Source of the DNA: a virus
Length of the DNA stretch: 25,490 nucleotides
Direction: 5' to 3' (one strand)
Virus record (IMG/VR): IMGVR_UViG_3300009149_000247
Coordinates: 1 to 25,490 of that record
The position numbers were made by a program, and so were the translations under genes. Below are positions 2,546 through 21,339 of this stretch, piece after piece. How positions within the stretch are numbered: the stretch's first letter is position 1; each line of letters opens with the position of its first letter. The notes under the pieces were generated by a model. That model searched no databases. It was not told where the DNA came from and was given only the letters and a program-made list of their open reading frames with translations.

Positions 2546-3850
2546 TTATACCCTCCCATATCCTCTTGCTATCCAGTCTATAGTGCGTTCTACCCCAGAG
2601 CCTGCCGAGTTTAATATCTGAACATGAAAACCATGTCTTGTCTGCAACGTATCTGACTTAACCAAATAATCCCCTGTGGCCATGTCCTGGCATGTTACCG
2701 CTATAGCAGGCACAGCCCCAAAGGCTTTATTGAAATCTACATCTAAGCCACCAGCCGGGACAGTTATATTATCTGCGCTCTCTTGTCTATCAGGCAAATC
2801 TATTTCTACTTCTAATTCTTCTATGGCTGGTGTTAATAACGTTGTGTTTTCTGTAGACATATAAAGCCTGAACTCATATAACTGGGCCTCATAATCTGCT
2901 ATCTCTAAATCAAACCAATCCCCAAAAGTTATATCGTCCATCTGATTTTTATAACCTGTGAAATTATCATCAGTAATGCCGCTGTTAGATACAAGGTATA
3001 TATAATTATTGCCCGCATTAAAGCACGCGCTCACAGTCGCCGGGGTAGTGGTACAATGCCCTAATTCTGTCCATGTTGCGCCTTCATCTTCTGATACATA
3101 AGCGGTTTCATTCACAAGCATCATCAACCCATTGTCATAATCAACCAGCCTGAAATCGGTGGCGTAATCCCACGGCAACCCTGTATCAACCTCGGTCCAC
3201 GCCACACCGTCTGTGCTTTTGTGTAAAATTCCACCGTCTCCGGCTGTTCTTGTGGCTATATAAAAAACTCCGTCATACACACAACCGCCTATATATGTTG
3301 ATACCCCTCTCCAATCGTCCCCGGTTATAGAAACCGCAGAGAAAGTGGAACCGTCTGATGTTCTATACAAATAATCCTTATTCGCTAAATACATATACCC
3401 ATCAAACGACACATATACTGGTGAGTAGTTGGCATTAGAAGGCATGCTCCCTGATTGTGTCCATGTCGCACCGTCGTCTGATGAATACCAGAAATCCAGT
3501 CTTACTGTGCCTATTGGATATCCTGAGATACCGCCTCCAAACCACAGCTTAGAATCATATGAAAATGCTGTTCCATTTCTTCTTGCAACAAACATAGTCC
3601 CTGATGTGGTTACCTCTACCCATGTTGCGCCATTATCGGTAGACTTATATACATCAGCGGTGGATGTTATAAGATATGAATTACCGTCATGCTGGCACTC
3701 GGCTGATATTCCGAAAGAACTTGAATCGTTTATTTCTACCCAGTCGTGTGAAATATCTGGGGATATTCTAGCCTCTATTTTAGCTGACCAACCCGATAAA
3801 CCGCTATCAAATATATTATTAACATCTTCAAGTGTTCCCCATTCAGACAT
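2546..3850 (-). CDS. C-terminal part of gpJ, displaced by -1 frame, with inserted Asp-box propeller
   Basis: 434 residues in three parts. Residues 1-40 (WGTLEDVNNIFDSGLSGW, then AKIEAR) and 300-434 (FGDWFDLEIADYEAQLYEFR, LEVEIDLPDR, VTCQDMATGDY, WIARGYG) together read like the C-terminal domain of lambda-type host-specificity proteins of environmental phages. Between them, about 45-295 is a propeller with Asp boxes at 70-77, 123-130, 163-170 (weak), 212-218 and 253-260 (S-x-D-x-G-x-T-W type). The ORF begins inside the end of the 944-residue gpJ ORF with a 76-nt overlap, far longer than any other overlap here, and its ATG lacks a convincing ribosome site. It is therefore more likely the displaced continuation of gpJ than a separate gene. 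If expressed alone it would be a tail-tip receptor-binding protein. Confidence 0.65.
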   Translation of the reverse strand: MSEWGTLEDVNNIFDSGLSGWSAKIEARISPDISHDWVEINDSSSFGISAECQHDGNSYLITSTADVYKSTDNGATWVEVTTSGTMFVARRNGTAFSYDSKLWFGGGISGYPIGTVRLDFWYSSDDGATWTQSGSMPSNANYSPVYVSFDGYMYLANKDYLYRTSDGSTFSAVSITGDDWRGVSTYIGGCVYDGVFYIATRTAGDGGILHKSTDGVAWTEVDTGLPWDYATDFRLVDYDNGLMMLVNETAYVSEDEGATWTELGHCTTTPATVSACFNAGNNYIYLVSNSGITDDNFTGYKNQMDDITFGDWFDLEIADYEAQLYEFRLYMSTENTTLLTPAIEELEVEIDLPDRQESADNITVPAGGLDVDFNKAFGAVPAIAVTCQDMATGDYLVKSDTLQTRHGFHVQILNSAGSGVERTIDWIARGYGRV

Positions 3851-17838: not shown

Positions 17839-18147
17839 CTATGATGTTCTAGCTTCGGCTGTAATGTTCAAGCCTCGCCGTCTGCCAATTTCCGATATAT
17901 TCAAAATGTCATACACAACGCTATCTATTAAGAGTCTGTCGTGTACTGTTATGCTAATCATTCTAGGTGTTTCAAATTCTATAGTTTTACTACCCCGCTC
18001 TTGTCTATCCTCAAACGACTCTATCTCTCTGTTGGTTTTTCTTCTCAGCCATATAGTTGCTACAGCCGACCATGTTGAAACAGGTCTACCCGTTGCGTCT
18101 GTGGTCTGTGTAGGTCTCTGTATATATGCTATCCTGTCTGCTCTCAC
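17839..18147 (-). CDS. Head-closure / head-tail joining protein (SPP1 gp16 type)
   Basis: 102 residues, the usual size. The family pattern is clear: RADRIAYIQRPTQTTDATGR, STWSAVATIWLRRKTNREIE, then RMISITVHDRLLIDSVVYDI and GLNITAEAR. It plugs the connector below the portal and accepts the tail. It starts with GTG at 18147, overlapping the upstream stop as GTGA, which ties its translation to the connector gene. Confidence 0.83.
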   Translation of the reverse strand: MRADRIAYIQRPTQTTDATGRPVSTWSAVATIWLRRKTNREIESFEDRQERGSKTIEFETPRMISITVHDRLLIDSVVYDILNISEIGRRRGLNITAEARTS

Positions 18148-18653
18148 TGCAAGAACTCCAGCGAGTTATAATGCTCTGTAAGTGCCTTGACTGTTTGAGT
18201 TACACCCGCTGATATTTCACCCGTTTCATACAGCCCTTGTATAACTGTATACATTGCCTGCCTGATAGGTTCGGGTATATCGTTCGGAAGTTCATAACCA
18301 GCTGTTACTCTTATACGTATAGGGTTCCTGTCTGCTAGGGTAGCTGTAGGTTCTTCCTCAATGACTACTACAGGCGGTATGCAGATACTATCAAGAATGT
18401 AATTACTCTCTAGCTCTGTTTCTGTATCTTCATCATCTGTATAGAATATCTCAACCGATTGAACTGGTTGAACTGGAAGAACAAACTCATCATACCAAGC
18501 ATCATAATAAACATCCCATACCTGAGTGACTAGCTTTAATCCTGTTATATTTTCAACGTGCGCTCGTGCCGCCATTAGATGCGTGGATAGCAAAGCGTCC
18601 TCTGATGTATATTGGTCAGCAGAAAGTGGTCGGCCGCAAGACGCAGATAGCAT
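18144..18653 (-). CDS. Head-tail connector, phiE125 gp8 / HK97 gp6 type, N-terminus out of frame
   Basis: The 169-residue ORF contains the family core: EDALLSTHLMAARAHVENIT, GLKLVTQVWDVYYDAW, FVLPVQPVQSVEIFYTDDED and a C-terminal helix IPEPIRQAMYTVIQGLYETG. Members form a ring under the portal. They normally begin about 28 residues earlier with a '..EPvsLaEaKaHLR..' helix; that helix is present, in the other frame, at 18712 downward. Joined, the protein would be about 197 residues, the normal family length. The ATG at 18653 does have an AGAGG 4 nt upstream, so some N-terminally short product may be made. Confidence 0.8.
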   Translation of the reverse strand: MLSASCGRPLSADQYTSEDALLSTHLMAARAHVENITGLKLVTQVWDVYYDAWYDEFVLPVQPVQSVEIFYTDDEDTETELESNYILDSICIPPVVVIEEEPTATLADRNPIRIRVTAGYELPNDIPEPIRQAMYTVIQGLYETGEISAGVTQTVKALTEHYNSLEFLQ

Positions 18654-18726: not shown

Positions 18727-19518
18727 TTATCTATCCTGCCAGATTCTAATGAACTTGGCTTTTAATGCTCCACCGCCAGTTGACCCTGCTTTATAAACAG
18801 AGTAGAAAGGCTGAAACAATACGCTAGTTACGTTAGCTGCTGATGTAGCCACTGTGTTGCCGTCGATAAAGAAACGTACATTATCAGTGTCATAGCATTC
18901 GATTCTGAAATCGTGATATGTTCCTGCTACTGCTGCAACGCCGGTATCGGTAATGGTCTGCGTGTTCTCGGCATCATTTACTACAGCCTGCCAGTTAGTA
19001 TCTGAATAACGAACCATAAACATTAGAGCATTACCGGATCCGTCTACAGATGTCCCAACTGGACCCATAAGCCCGAAACCAACCTCTGCTGTACCTACTG
19101 TAGTAGGAAGCGTATATGCTGTTGCTTTAGTGTTATACCCCAAATTTTTAGCGGGGTTAAACTGTTCAAGGTCTGCCATATAGATAGTACCCTGTTCGGC
19201 TTCTGATGCTGTTACATCTAAGGTTATATAGATACCGCCACCATCTTCTGAGGTAAGGAAGCTAACCGTTGGTGTACCTGTGAATTTATAACGCCATGTA
19301 TCATCTGTTGTTACATTTGCTGCTGCATTATATACAGGTATGGTTGAGATGCTTCTGATAAACTCATCATAGAATTGAAGAGCCGGAAGTGGTAAAACCG
19401 TCTCTTGAGTTTTTGACTCAAAATATTCAAGATGGCCTGCTTTCCATTTTGCTTTAGTGCTTGCCATAGCTGGAACACAAAGGCCCGCGATAACAAGAGC
19501 TAGTATAATTTTTTTCAT
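18727..19518 (-). CDS. Secreted lectin-like (jelly-roll) protein encoded in the head cluster
   Basis: 263 residues. The N-terminus is a textbook type I signal peptide: MKK, a hydrophobic core IILALVIAGLCVP, and cleavage after AMA (A19|S20). The LGLC-like stretch does not satisfy a lipobox. The mature part is beta-rich with a concanavalin/LamG-like look (ALMFMVRYSDTNWQAVVND, GTYHDFRIECYDTDNVRFFI, DGNTVATS, LKAKFIRIWQDR). A ribosome site GGAGA with ~7 nt spacing decides the start. It sits between decoration and connector genes, behind a strong hairpin. It may be a capsid-surface glycan binder, or a protein exported to the infected host's periplasm. No enzymatic motif is seen. Confidence 0.7.
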   Translation of the reverse strand: MKKIILALVIAGLCVPAMASTKAKWKAGHLEYFESKTQETVLPLPALQFYDEFIRSISTIPVYNAAANVTTDDTWRYKFTGTPTVSFLTSEDGGGIYITLDVTASEAEQGTIYMADLEQFNPAKNLGYNTKATAYTLPTTVGTAEVGFGLMGPVGTSVDGSGNALMFMVRYSDTNWQAVVNDAENTQTITDTGVAAVAGTYHDFRIECYDTDNVRFFIDGNTVATSAANVTSVLFQPFYSVYKAGSTGGGALKAKFIRIWQDR

Positions 19519-19534
19519 TGTATAATCTCCTTAA

Positions 19535-19566
19535 ATTAGAGAGAGGCTTTTCAACCCCTCTCTAAT
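19535..19566 (-). terminator. 14-bp hairpin with GAAA tetraloop between capsid-decoration and secreted-protein genes
   Basis: On the minus strand ATTAGAGAG (19566-19558) pairs with CTCTCTAAT (19543-19535). Five inner pairs (two G-U) continue the stem to a closing GAAA loop. It has no T tract, so it is a poor intrinsic terminator. A GNRA-capped stem just after the highly expressed capsid genes is better explained as an mRNA processing or stability element that sets different levels for genes on each side. It lies 8 nt past the decoration stop and ends just before the next ribosome site. Confidence 0.7.
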
Positions 19567-19571
19567 AATTG

Positions 19572-20051
19572 TTACGCGTTAGGGTCTACTGGAATTGATG
19601 AAACGTAATCAGGCTCACCGAGGATATAGAATACTGAGATAAGGTCAGCATTAGCTCCCGGAGAAGCTATGTTCACGCGGACCCAGTTAAACTCATTATC
19701 GCTGTCTAAATCAGAAGCATCAATCTGTAATACCGTTACAGTGTTAGCTGTAGCAGGAAGATTGAAAGTATCTGAGGTTATGGCTGTTTTGGTTGTTATG
19801 GATGCACCCGCCAGCTTTGTCCAGTAGTAGTCCATTGCAAGCGACTTCTCATCTGTGAATGCTTCAACTGTGGCTTGTGTAAGAGTAACGGCTGGTGTAC
19901 CACCAGCCCATGCACCCTGTGATATAACAATCATCAGCTTGCCATAGTTAGCCATGTTTACTGCTGTGCCTGTGACTACTGCTCCAGTAGTATCGATTGG
20001 AACTGCTCCCATTTCAGGGAAGATTGTTTCTAAGTTTAATCCGTGCTTCAT
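19572..20051 (-). CDS. Probable capsid decoration protein
   Basis: 159 residues, no named family recognised. Placed directly after the major capsid gene with a GGGAGA ribosome site, where decoration proteins usually lie. The chain is beta-rich (AVNMANYGKLMIVISQGAWA, AVTLTQATVEAF, TVLQIDASDLDSDN, WVRVNIASPGANADLISVFY) with no Cys and no membrane segment. The pattern resembles the small beta-sandwich proteins that follow HK97-fold capsid genes in many environmental phages. Assignment rests on position and fold impression. Confidence 0.55.
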   Translation of the reverse strand: MKHGLNLETIFPEMGAVPIDTTGAVVTGTAVNMANYGKLMIVISQGAWAGGTPAVTLTQATVEAFTDEKSLAMDYYWTKLAGASITTKTAITSDTFNLPATANTVTVLQIDASDLDSDNEFNWVRVNIASPGANADLISVFYILGEPDYVSSIPVDPNA

Positions 20052-20061
20052 GTTATCTCCC

Positions 20062-21339
20062 TTATGCCCTTGCTGCCAGAGCTACGGCTGCTGACATGTT
20101 GCTTCCGTGACTTGGTTTATAAACTGAATCGTTGAGGAATTTACCATCTGAGTACATTGTCCATCTCAGTGCTGTCTCTGCATAATCGAAACGGATATGC
20201 ATACTGGAAGCTGCTACAGCTGGACCGCCAGTAACCACCATATACTGAGAAAGATCCACAAACATGATATCGCCAAGGTCGCCGAGCGCAGATGAGTGTT
20301 CTGTATAAACAATCTCTCTACCGTCGAGTGCTCCGAACATTGCTTCACTGTATCCACCGGAAGGAAGGAATACAGGAGCTCCACCAGTACCAACACCGCT
20401 TACCATCTGTCTAAGCTGTGTTTCGCAATCTTGATTAGCCAACCATATTGAGTTGCCTCTGAACTGTGGTCTGAGGCGTGGTGTCATCTTAGCGATGTTC
20501 TCGGATACGATTGTGTCTGCATCCTGTCCTGGTTCTTTTACTACTGTGATAAGACTCTTGGAATTGAGGATACCGTTAAACTGTCCACCTGTTCCTGAAC
20601 CTCTGATGATCTCATTGTTATGAGCATATGCAAAAGCAGCGGTTACGCTCTTGTTGATATACTGCTCAAGTGCGCCGTCTCCCTGACTCATAAGCTCGTC
20701 AGTTACATATACCATACCGTGAATTGCATGAGGTGTGAACGATACGCTTCTAAGTCCAGGTTTACTGGAAGTAAGCTGTTCGCCTTCTTTAACGCGATAA
20801 ACTTTAACACCACCATATACGAGTCCACCCGATCTATCAGAGTCATCACCAACGATAAGTCTAAGCTCACCTTTAACGTTATTGATCTGATTACATCTGC
20901 TCATCAGATTGGTAGGGTCATCCATGATTGAATTGAGTAAGTCTGTGCTTACTGTCTCAGGAACCGCGAGTCCACCCTCTGATGGTGTAAGTGTATTCAT
21001 TCCAGATACAGAAGCATTGAGTCTAGGGTCTGTATACTGGTTAGTTGCTTTCAGATAGATTGCTTTTGCAAACTGTCCTGAGTTAGCGAAACCTGTAGGC
21101 TCTTCTATTTCTATTTTCTCATAAGTTCCCTGCGGCCTTGAAGCTGCTGGTGCTGTTGCTTCATAATCAATCTGTCGTTTAGCTCTAGCGATATCAAAGT
21201 CGAGTGCTTTGATCTCTTCTGCTATAGCATCGTCTCTTGTAATTTCTTCTGCTGTTAGTTCAGTTTCGGTAGCGTAAAACGCTTTTGATTCTGCAACCAA
21301 CGCTGCACGATTAGATACTAATTTGTTATAACGTGTCAT
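20062..21339 (-). CDS. Major capsid protein, HK97 fold
   Basis: 425 residues. The first ~60 (NKLVSNRAALVAESKAFYAT then EEITRDDAIAEEIKALDFDI) form the coiled-coil delta domain that serves as internal scaffold and is removed by the prohead protease; a Pro/Ala-rich stretch follows (TAPAASRPQG). The mature fold starts around 95-115 (SEGGLAVPETV). HK97-family segments include NPTNLMSRCNQI-like helix (137-148), SFTPHAIHGMVYVTDELMSQ, EQYINKSVTAAFAYAHNNEI, RGSGTGGQFNGIL and the C-terminal FDYAETALRWTMYSDGKFLN. Start supported by AAAGG about 10 nt before ATG. It is made in the highest amount, and the hairpin downstream may stabilise its mRNA. Confidence 0.94.
   Translation of the reverse strand: MTRYNKLVSNRAALVAESKAFYATETELTAEEITRDDAIAEEIKALDFDIARAKRQIDYEATAPAASRPQGTYEKIEIEEPTGFANSGQFAKAIYLKATNQYTDPRLNASVSGMNTLTPSEGGLAVPETVSTDLLNSIMDDPTNLMSRCNQINNVKGELRLIVGDDSDRSGGLVYGGVKVYRVKEGEQLTSSKPGLRSVSFTPHAIHGMVYVTDELMSQGDGALEQYINKSVTAAFAYAHNNEIIRGSGTGGQFNGILNSKSLITVVKEPGQDADTIVSENIAKMTPRLRPQFRGNSIWLANQDCETQLRQMVSGVGTGGAPVFLPSGGYSEAMFGALDGREIVYTEHSSALGDLGDIMFVDLSQYMVVTGGPAVAASSMHIRFDYAETALRWTMYSDGKFLNDSVYKPSHGSNMSAAVALAARA

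Follow-up and report, generated by a model that had tools for sequence, protein, structure and literature searches.

A jelly-roll protein with a predicted signal peptide in the head-decoration slot of a viral genome, and its leaderless relatives

The DNA analysed, a stretch of 25,490 nucleotides from IMG/VR virus record IMGVR_UViG_3300009149_000247 (referred to below as the window), belongs to a tailed bacterial virus and encodes a head module on its minus strand, in which the genes for terminase, portal, S49 protease, HK97-type capsid protein, a decoration-type protein of 159 amino acids, a protein of 263 amino acids, a head-tail adaptor and a head-closure protein follow each other. The gene for the 263-aa protein, which carries a predicted signal peptide and a predicted jelly roll of the LamG/ConA type, occupies positions 18727..19518 on the minus strand, stop codon included; the plus strand of 18727-19518 contains many stops. 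Directly upstream lies the decoration-type gene (19572..20051, minus strand), relatives of which are located 3' of the capsid gene in many loci, preceded by the gene for the major capsid protein (20062..21339, minus strand; PF05065, 1.2e-33). Downstream, the head-tail adaptor (18144..18653, minus strand; phrog_442, 3.6e-15) is followed by a head-closure protein matching PF05521. These neighbours confirm the position between decoration and connector genes given in the first-pass annotation and place the gene, as would be expected for capsid decoration, in the head module beside the capsid gene.

The N-terminus of the protein, MKKIILALVIAGLCVPAMA (residues 1-19; 19462..19518, minus strand), is a predicted Sec/SPase I signal peptide, after which the predicted mature protein begins with STKAKW. 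Signal peptides were scored with an n/h-region heuristic and not with SignalP. By this heuristic the window protein shows a positively charged n-region (KK), an uncharged hydrophobic core with a mean Kyte-Doolittle value of 3.2 over 10 residues, and small residues at -3 and -1 in the cleavage motif AMA|S. It is the only one of the 29 ORFs of the window with a signal-like N-terminus, and just 0.11% of random 19-residue extensions of the same base composition pass the signal-peptide test. The clean type I signal peptide proposed earlier is therefore borne out at the level of the heuristic, and export of the protein is likely on the basis of its sequence. A lipoprotein was rejected, as there is no lipobox, PF08139 reaches 10.9 bits against a cut-off of 20, and Leu precedes Cys14.

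The apparent signal peptide would be untranslated if the true start were the internal Met18 codon (19465..19467, minus strand), or both forms could be made. This codon stands exactly where the leaderless relatives start (MSTKAKW-type). We nevertheless consider such a start rather improbable: the long, signal-bearing start ATG1 is served by a strong and well spaced Shine-Dalgarno sequence, AAGGAG (19527..19532, minus strand), none is present upstream of ATG18, and an untranslated extension would resemble a signal peptide only at the low random rate given above. In addition, no Met is found at the junction in the signal-bearing relatives of loci L027 and L116 or in the signal-bearing members of a second family of about 125 amino acids treated below.

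Single-sequence searches with the window protein gave no match in phages, plasmids, viral contigs or genome contigs, and relatives were reached only via the capsid gene. A scan with the capsid family led to 80 viral loci, in which 12 genes, located in the same slot, matched the window protein; the family profile then extended the set to about 98 distinct scored members from uncultured phages. The window protein matches the family profiles over the whole mature domain (1e-82 for alignment A2 and 4e-61 for alignment A4). The gene order capsid, decoration, LamG-like gene, connector is kept in nearly all of the approximately 98 members, the window gene included. Four tblastn queries against 50,697 phage records found no member of the LamG-like family. 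The only genome-assembly contigs found to carry it, L168 and L169, are labelled as Spirochaetes MAGs and represent the sole host clue; a scan of 296 Spirochaetes genomes added no full-length family member. A tandem second copy of the LamG-like gene was observed in L028, L096, L099, L102, L109, L142 and L169.

Of the 98 members, 95 lack a signal peptide; their start lies at the position of Met18/Ser20 of the window protein, as can be seen from the start of leaderless L105, MSTKAKWSSGVLTYFD, next to that of the window protein, STKAKWKAGHLEYFES. None of these 95 carries any other N-terminal extension of at least 12 amino acids, and two further leaderless members were found beyond this set. A leader is present in three members only: the window protein, L027 and L116. 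The leaderless state is thus the majority trait of the family of alignment A4, not a strict requirement, and the window gene is an exception, a variant. The first-pass annotation had held that relatives lacking a signal peptide would count against its reading; such relatives make up most of the family, while the signal peptide of the window protein itself and the unusual nature of its position remain supported. With 95 of 98 members leaderless, this is not a family of periplasmic or moron proteins with a chance location in a head operon.

L027 is 47% identical to the leaderless relative L247, and L116 is 51% identical to leaderless L011. Since each has a leaderless relative of about 50% identity, it is the leader state that changes, and slot and domain stay. 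The family tree requires two leader changes, with long branches for the window and L027, but a tree with all three signal-bearing LamG genes in one clade, and hence with one origin, was not rejected by an AU test (p-AU 0.395). Taken from the sequences, this is a head-module family in which a signal was probably gained (or lost) at the exact boundary of the protein, and probably more than once. From the joining or loss at that boundary it follows that the cleaved exported form would begin where the leaderless form does. Cysteine counts of the signal-bearing LamG members (5, 1 and 6) show no clear excess over the leaderless mean of 3.3; they give no support to the idea that the protein is exported in order to be oxidized in the periplasm.

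The predicted mature domain (residues 20-263, beginning STKAKW; 18730..19461, minus strand) was modelled with AlphaFold2. With an alignment of 79 family sequences a pLDDT of 88.5 and a pTM of 0.87 were obtained, compared with a pLDDT of 35 from the single sequence. Order begins at residue 21, just past the predicted cleavage site, and the signal peptide itself is of low confidence or disordered in the model. The best structural match is the GH16 laminarinase/lichenase fold (VIA-align, GH16 glucanases, Z 18.6, rmsd 2.5 over 173 residues). Foldseek matches include 2a5z, the crystal structure of SO2946 from Shewanella, which bears the title "protein of unknown function" and for which a literature search returned no functional information. 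The LamG/concanavalin-type lectin fold suggested by the first reading is thus in agreement with the predicted structure. The window protein shares the jelly-roll fold with SO2946 and Laminin_G_3 but falls under the Pfam cut-offs, scoring 18.9 bits for Laminin_G_3 (PF13385; gathering threshold 27.6) and 19.5 bits for SO2946-like_C (PF22237; 27), so that by sequence its relation to both is a remote one only. Within alignment A2 (n=12), PF22237 and PF13385 match 5 and 7 members, respectively, at E<=0.1, with best values of 3e-7 and 9.6e-9. A GH16 enzyme was rejected: the ExDx(x)E catalytic motif is absent from the window protein and from all 109 family genes examined, which argues for a binding or structural domain.

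The gap between the decoration gene and the 263-aa gene contains a 14-bp RNA hairpin (19535..19566, minus strand; -20.3 kcal/mol, z -5.1). Many relatives, whether or not they have a signal peptide, carry a stable hairpin in the same gap, the median over 73 gaps being -29.2 kcal/mol, a value that has no shuffle control. The hairpin of L116 has a T-run, and the gap of L027 leaves no room for a hairpin. As the hairpins before the window gene, L116 and the leaderless genes are alike, the expression context of these genes looks alike as well. The hairpin may serve as a partial terminator or processing site, which would keep the level of the accessory gene below that of the decoration protein, with or without a leader. 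These observations bear on the earlier idea of lysogeny cargo, i.e. a lysogenic-conversion (moron) gene merely placed in the head operon. An exported lectin-like product would suit conversion functions, but the slot is conserved across many phages, leaderless homologues occupy it and share the hairpin, and promoters in the region show no excess (11 found, 9.2 expected). A moron gene is therefore very unlikely.

In the same slot there is another family, unrelated to the first, with proteins of about 125 amino acids (MAGTVTITEE...); 6 of its 67 members carry a leader and 61 do not. Its loci include L012, L027, L050, L061, L093, L106, L107 and L116, and none of six members scanned matched a PHROG. 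The leader junction again falls exactly at the leaderless start, and at least two to three changes are needed. Two cysteines are present in 4 of the 6 signal-bearing members, compared with two or more in 8 of the 61 leaderless ones; this might hint at periplasmic oxidation, and the sequence difference is suggestive only. Two more signal-bearing slot proteins pair with leaderless homologues with the same kind of junction, and the C-terminal domain of one signal-bearing protein in the L106 slot recurs in cyanophage proteins that lack a leader and carry the annotation virion structural. Over the loci with a defined slot, signal-like N-termini were found in 10 of 125 slot genes and in 6 of 1003 other genes (p 9e-7, a value which overstates independence because the ten slot genes come from five loci, two of them with gene runs).

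In the decoration-connector interval of L033 (6312-7730), L045 (3824-6216), L063 (10850-12513), L098 (6736-10206) and L107 (6713-8878), three to five signal-peptide genes stand in a row, among them genes for fibre-like and for cysteine-rich proteins. One protein of L098 (8194-10206) combines a LamG domain with a SASA carbohydrate-esterase domain. In Caulobacter phage Kronos (L005, 6575-7309) an unrelated protein in the same slot, between capsid gene and connector, has a signal-like start, MKTTRFAHASLLALCAAAALA.

Signal-like hydrophobic leaders were also seen on large terminases, in L006 (642-2420), L013 (512-2287), L014 (88-1863, with the same leader as L013) and L015 (524-2296). They sit just before the start of a close relative in L038 (MASVYTAQQY...), and the genes have internal start codons near the junction, without a Shine-Dalgarno sequence. 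The large terminase works in the cytoplasm. Hydrophobic leaders on the cytoplasmic large terminases of L006, L013 and L015 mean that a leader need not imply export, and in this phage group leaders may not always stand for it. The leader could be real and tether head proteins to the inner membrane during assembly, with no export taking place. The terminase leaders of these three related phages, placed at the start of a close relative, and the leaders on several head-slot families would fit such a tether. The leader of the window protein, however, differs from a signal anchor in its short core and good SPase I site, and no leader was found on any of 93 portal, 62 decoration or 47 connector proteins. 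A tether is on balance unlikely.

The slot, the signal-type N-terminus, the exact junction and the leaderless relatives in the same slot are read directly from the sequence, and the fold is taken from a predicted model. The explanation to which we give a tentative preference is that of an exported accessory protein of the virion surface, belonging to the head-decoration slot, with a jelly roll of glycan-binding type and loaded onto particles at lysis. The window protein would be synthesized late, together with the head genes, exported via Sec and cleaved after AMA, giving STKAKW..., nearly the same start as that of the cytoplasmic relatives. The mature protein would build up in the periplasm, meet the virions at cell lysis and settle on the capsid exterior as a low-copy accessory, where it could contact glycans on the next cell or in its environment. 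The effect of the signal would be that a surface accessory protein folds outside the cytoplasm and still ends up at the same site on the virion. Should the exported and the leaderless form share one function, this function has to be reachable from the periplasm, which points to the exterior of virions released at lysis.

Head assembly in tailed phages is cytoplasmic, and for that reason a protein that is exported may just as well no longer take part in building the virion. In this main rival explanation the signal re-routes a former virion protein to the periplasm or to the infected cell's surface, or yields a soluble lectin after lysis, with superinfection exclusion, blocked re-adsorption to debris or particle retention as its job. 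A signal peptide combined with a lectin-type fold is consistent with this, and there are precedents: T4 Spackle is a phage protein of the periplasm that attaches to a component of the entering virion (PMC7677548), and in lambda the gene for the exported protein Lom lies within the tail genes (PMC12309495). The position and the hairpin, on the other hand, are common to leaderless relatives, nothing specific indicates exclusion, and Spackle is an early product, whereas the window gene lies in the head cluster. We regard re-routing as possible, with the balance of evidence leaning against it.

To our knowledge, the folds of T4 Hoc, T5 pb10, SPP1 gp12 and phi29 gp8.5 differ from that of the window protein. 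A close parallel to the preferred reading, an exported protein of the virion surface, is offered by these four, which are likewise head-module accessories of a glycan-interacting type and do not belong to the core capsid genes (PMC7602432). Some decoration proteins are known to bind carbohydrates and to help in attachment (PMC7602432). The same review of decoration and fibre proteins mentions no signal peptide, periplasm or secretion, and the window protein is a putative capsid binder. With Spackle it shares being phage-encoded and, by prediction, processed on periplasmic export; Spackle differs in being a small helical bundle and an early product, and it is not a variant of a head protein (PMC7677548). 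Lom is likewise a signal-peptide protein encoded within a structural gene region, but it is an outer-membrane beta-barrel of the tail region, for which the text reports no leaderless virion relatives (PMC12309495). Spackle and Lom are thus exported phage proteins but not variants of head proteins, whereas the window protein, judged by its relatives, is a variant of a head-module protein.

The broader proposition, that some tailed phages send capsid accessory proteins via the host Sec pathway with a cleavable signal at the exact start, periplasmic maturation and virion decoration only at lysis, is one we hold to be doubtful. No description of such a two-compartment assembly route for tailed phages was found in the literature searched, and the open-access literature searched yielded no account of head-module proteins of tailed phages that bear signal peptides. 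Repeated, junction-exact gain or loss of a Sec signal across several unrelated proteins of one slot would imply that a portion of the virion's surface, or a defence derived from the virion, is produced outside the cytoplasm. The natural pairs of about 50% identity, one with a leader and one leaderless, offer direct test material. Signal-peptide genes in structural modules should not automatically be filed as lysogenic-conversion genes.

Elsewhere in the window, two tail-region proteins (1048-2187 and 2546-3850) gave weak matches to Kelch/BNR-type propellers below the Pfam cut-offs. A small protein with hydrophobic stretches (406-1048) adjoins a Peptidase M15 gene, and the two likely form a lysis pair.
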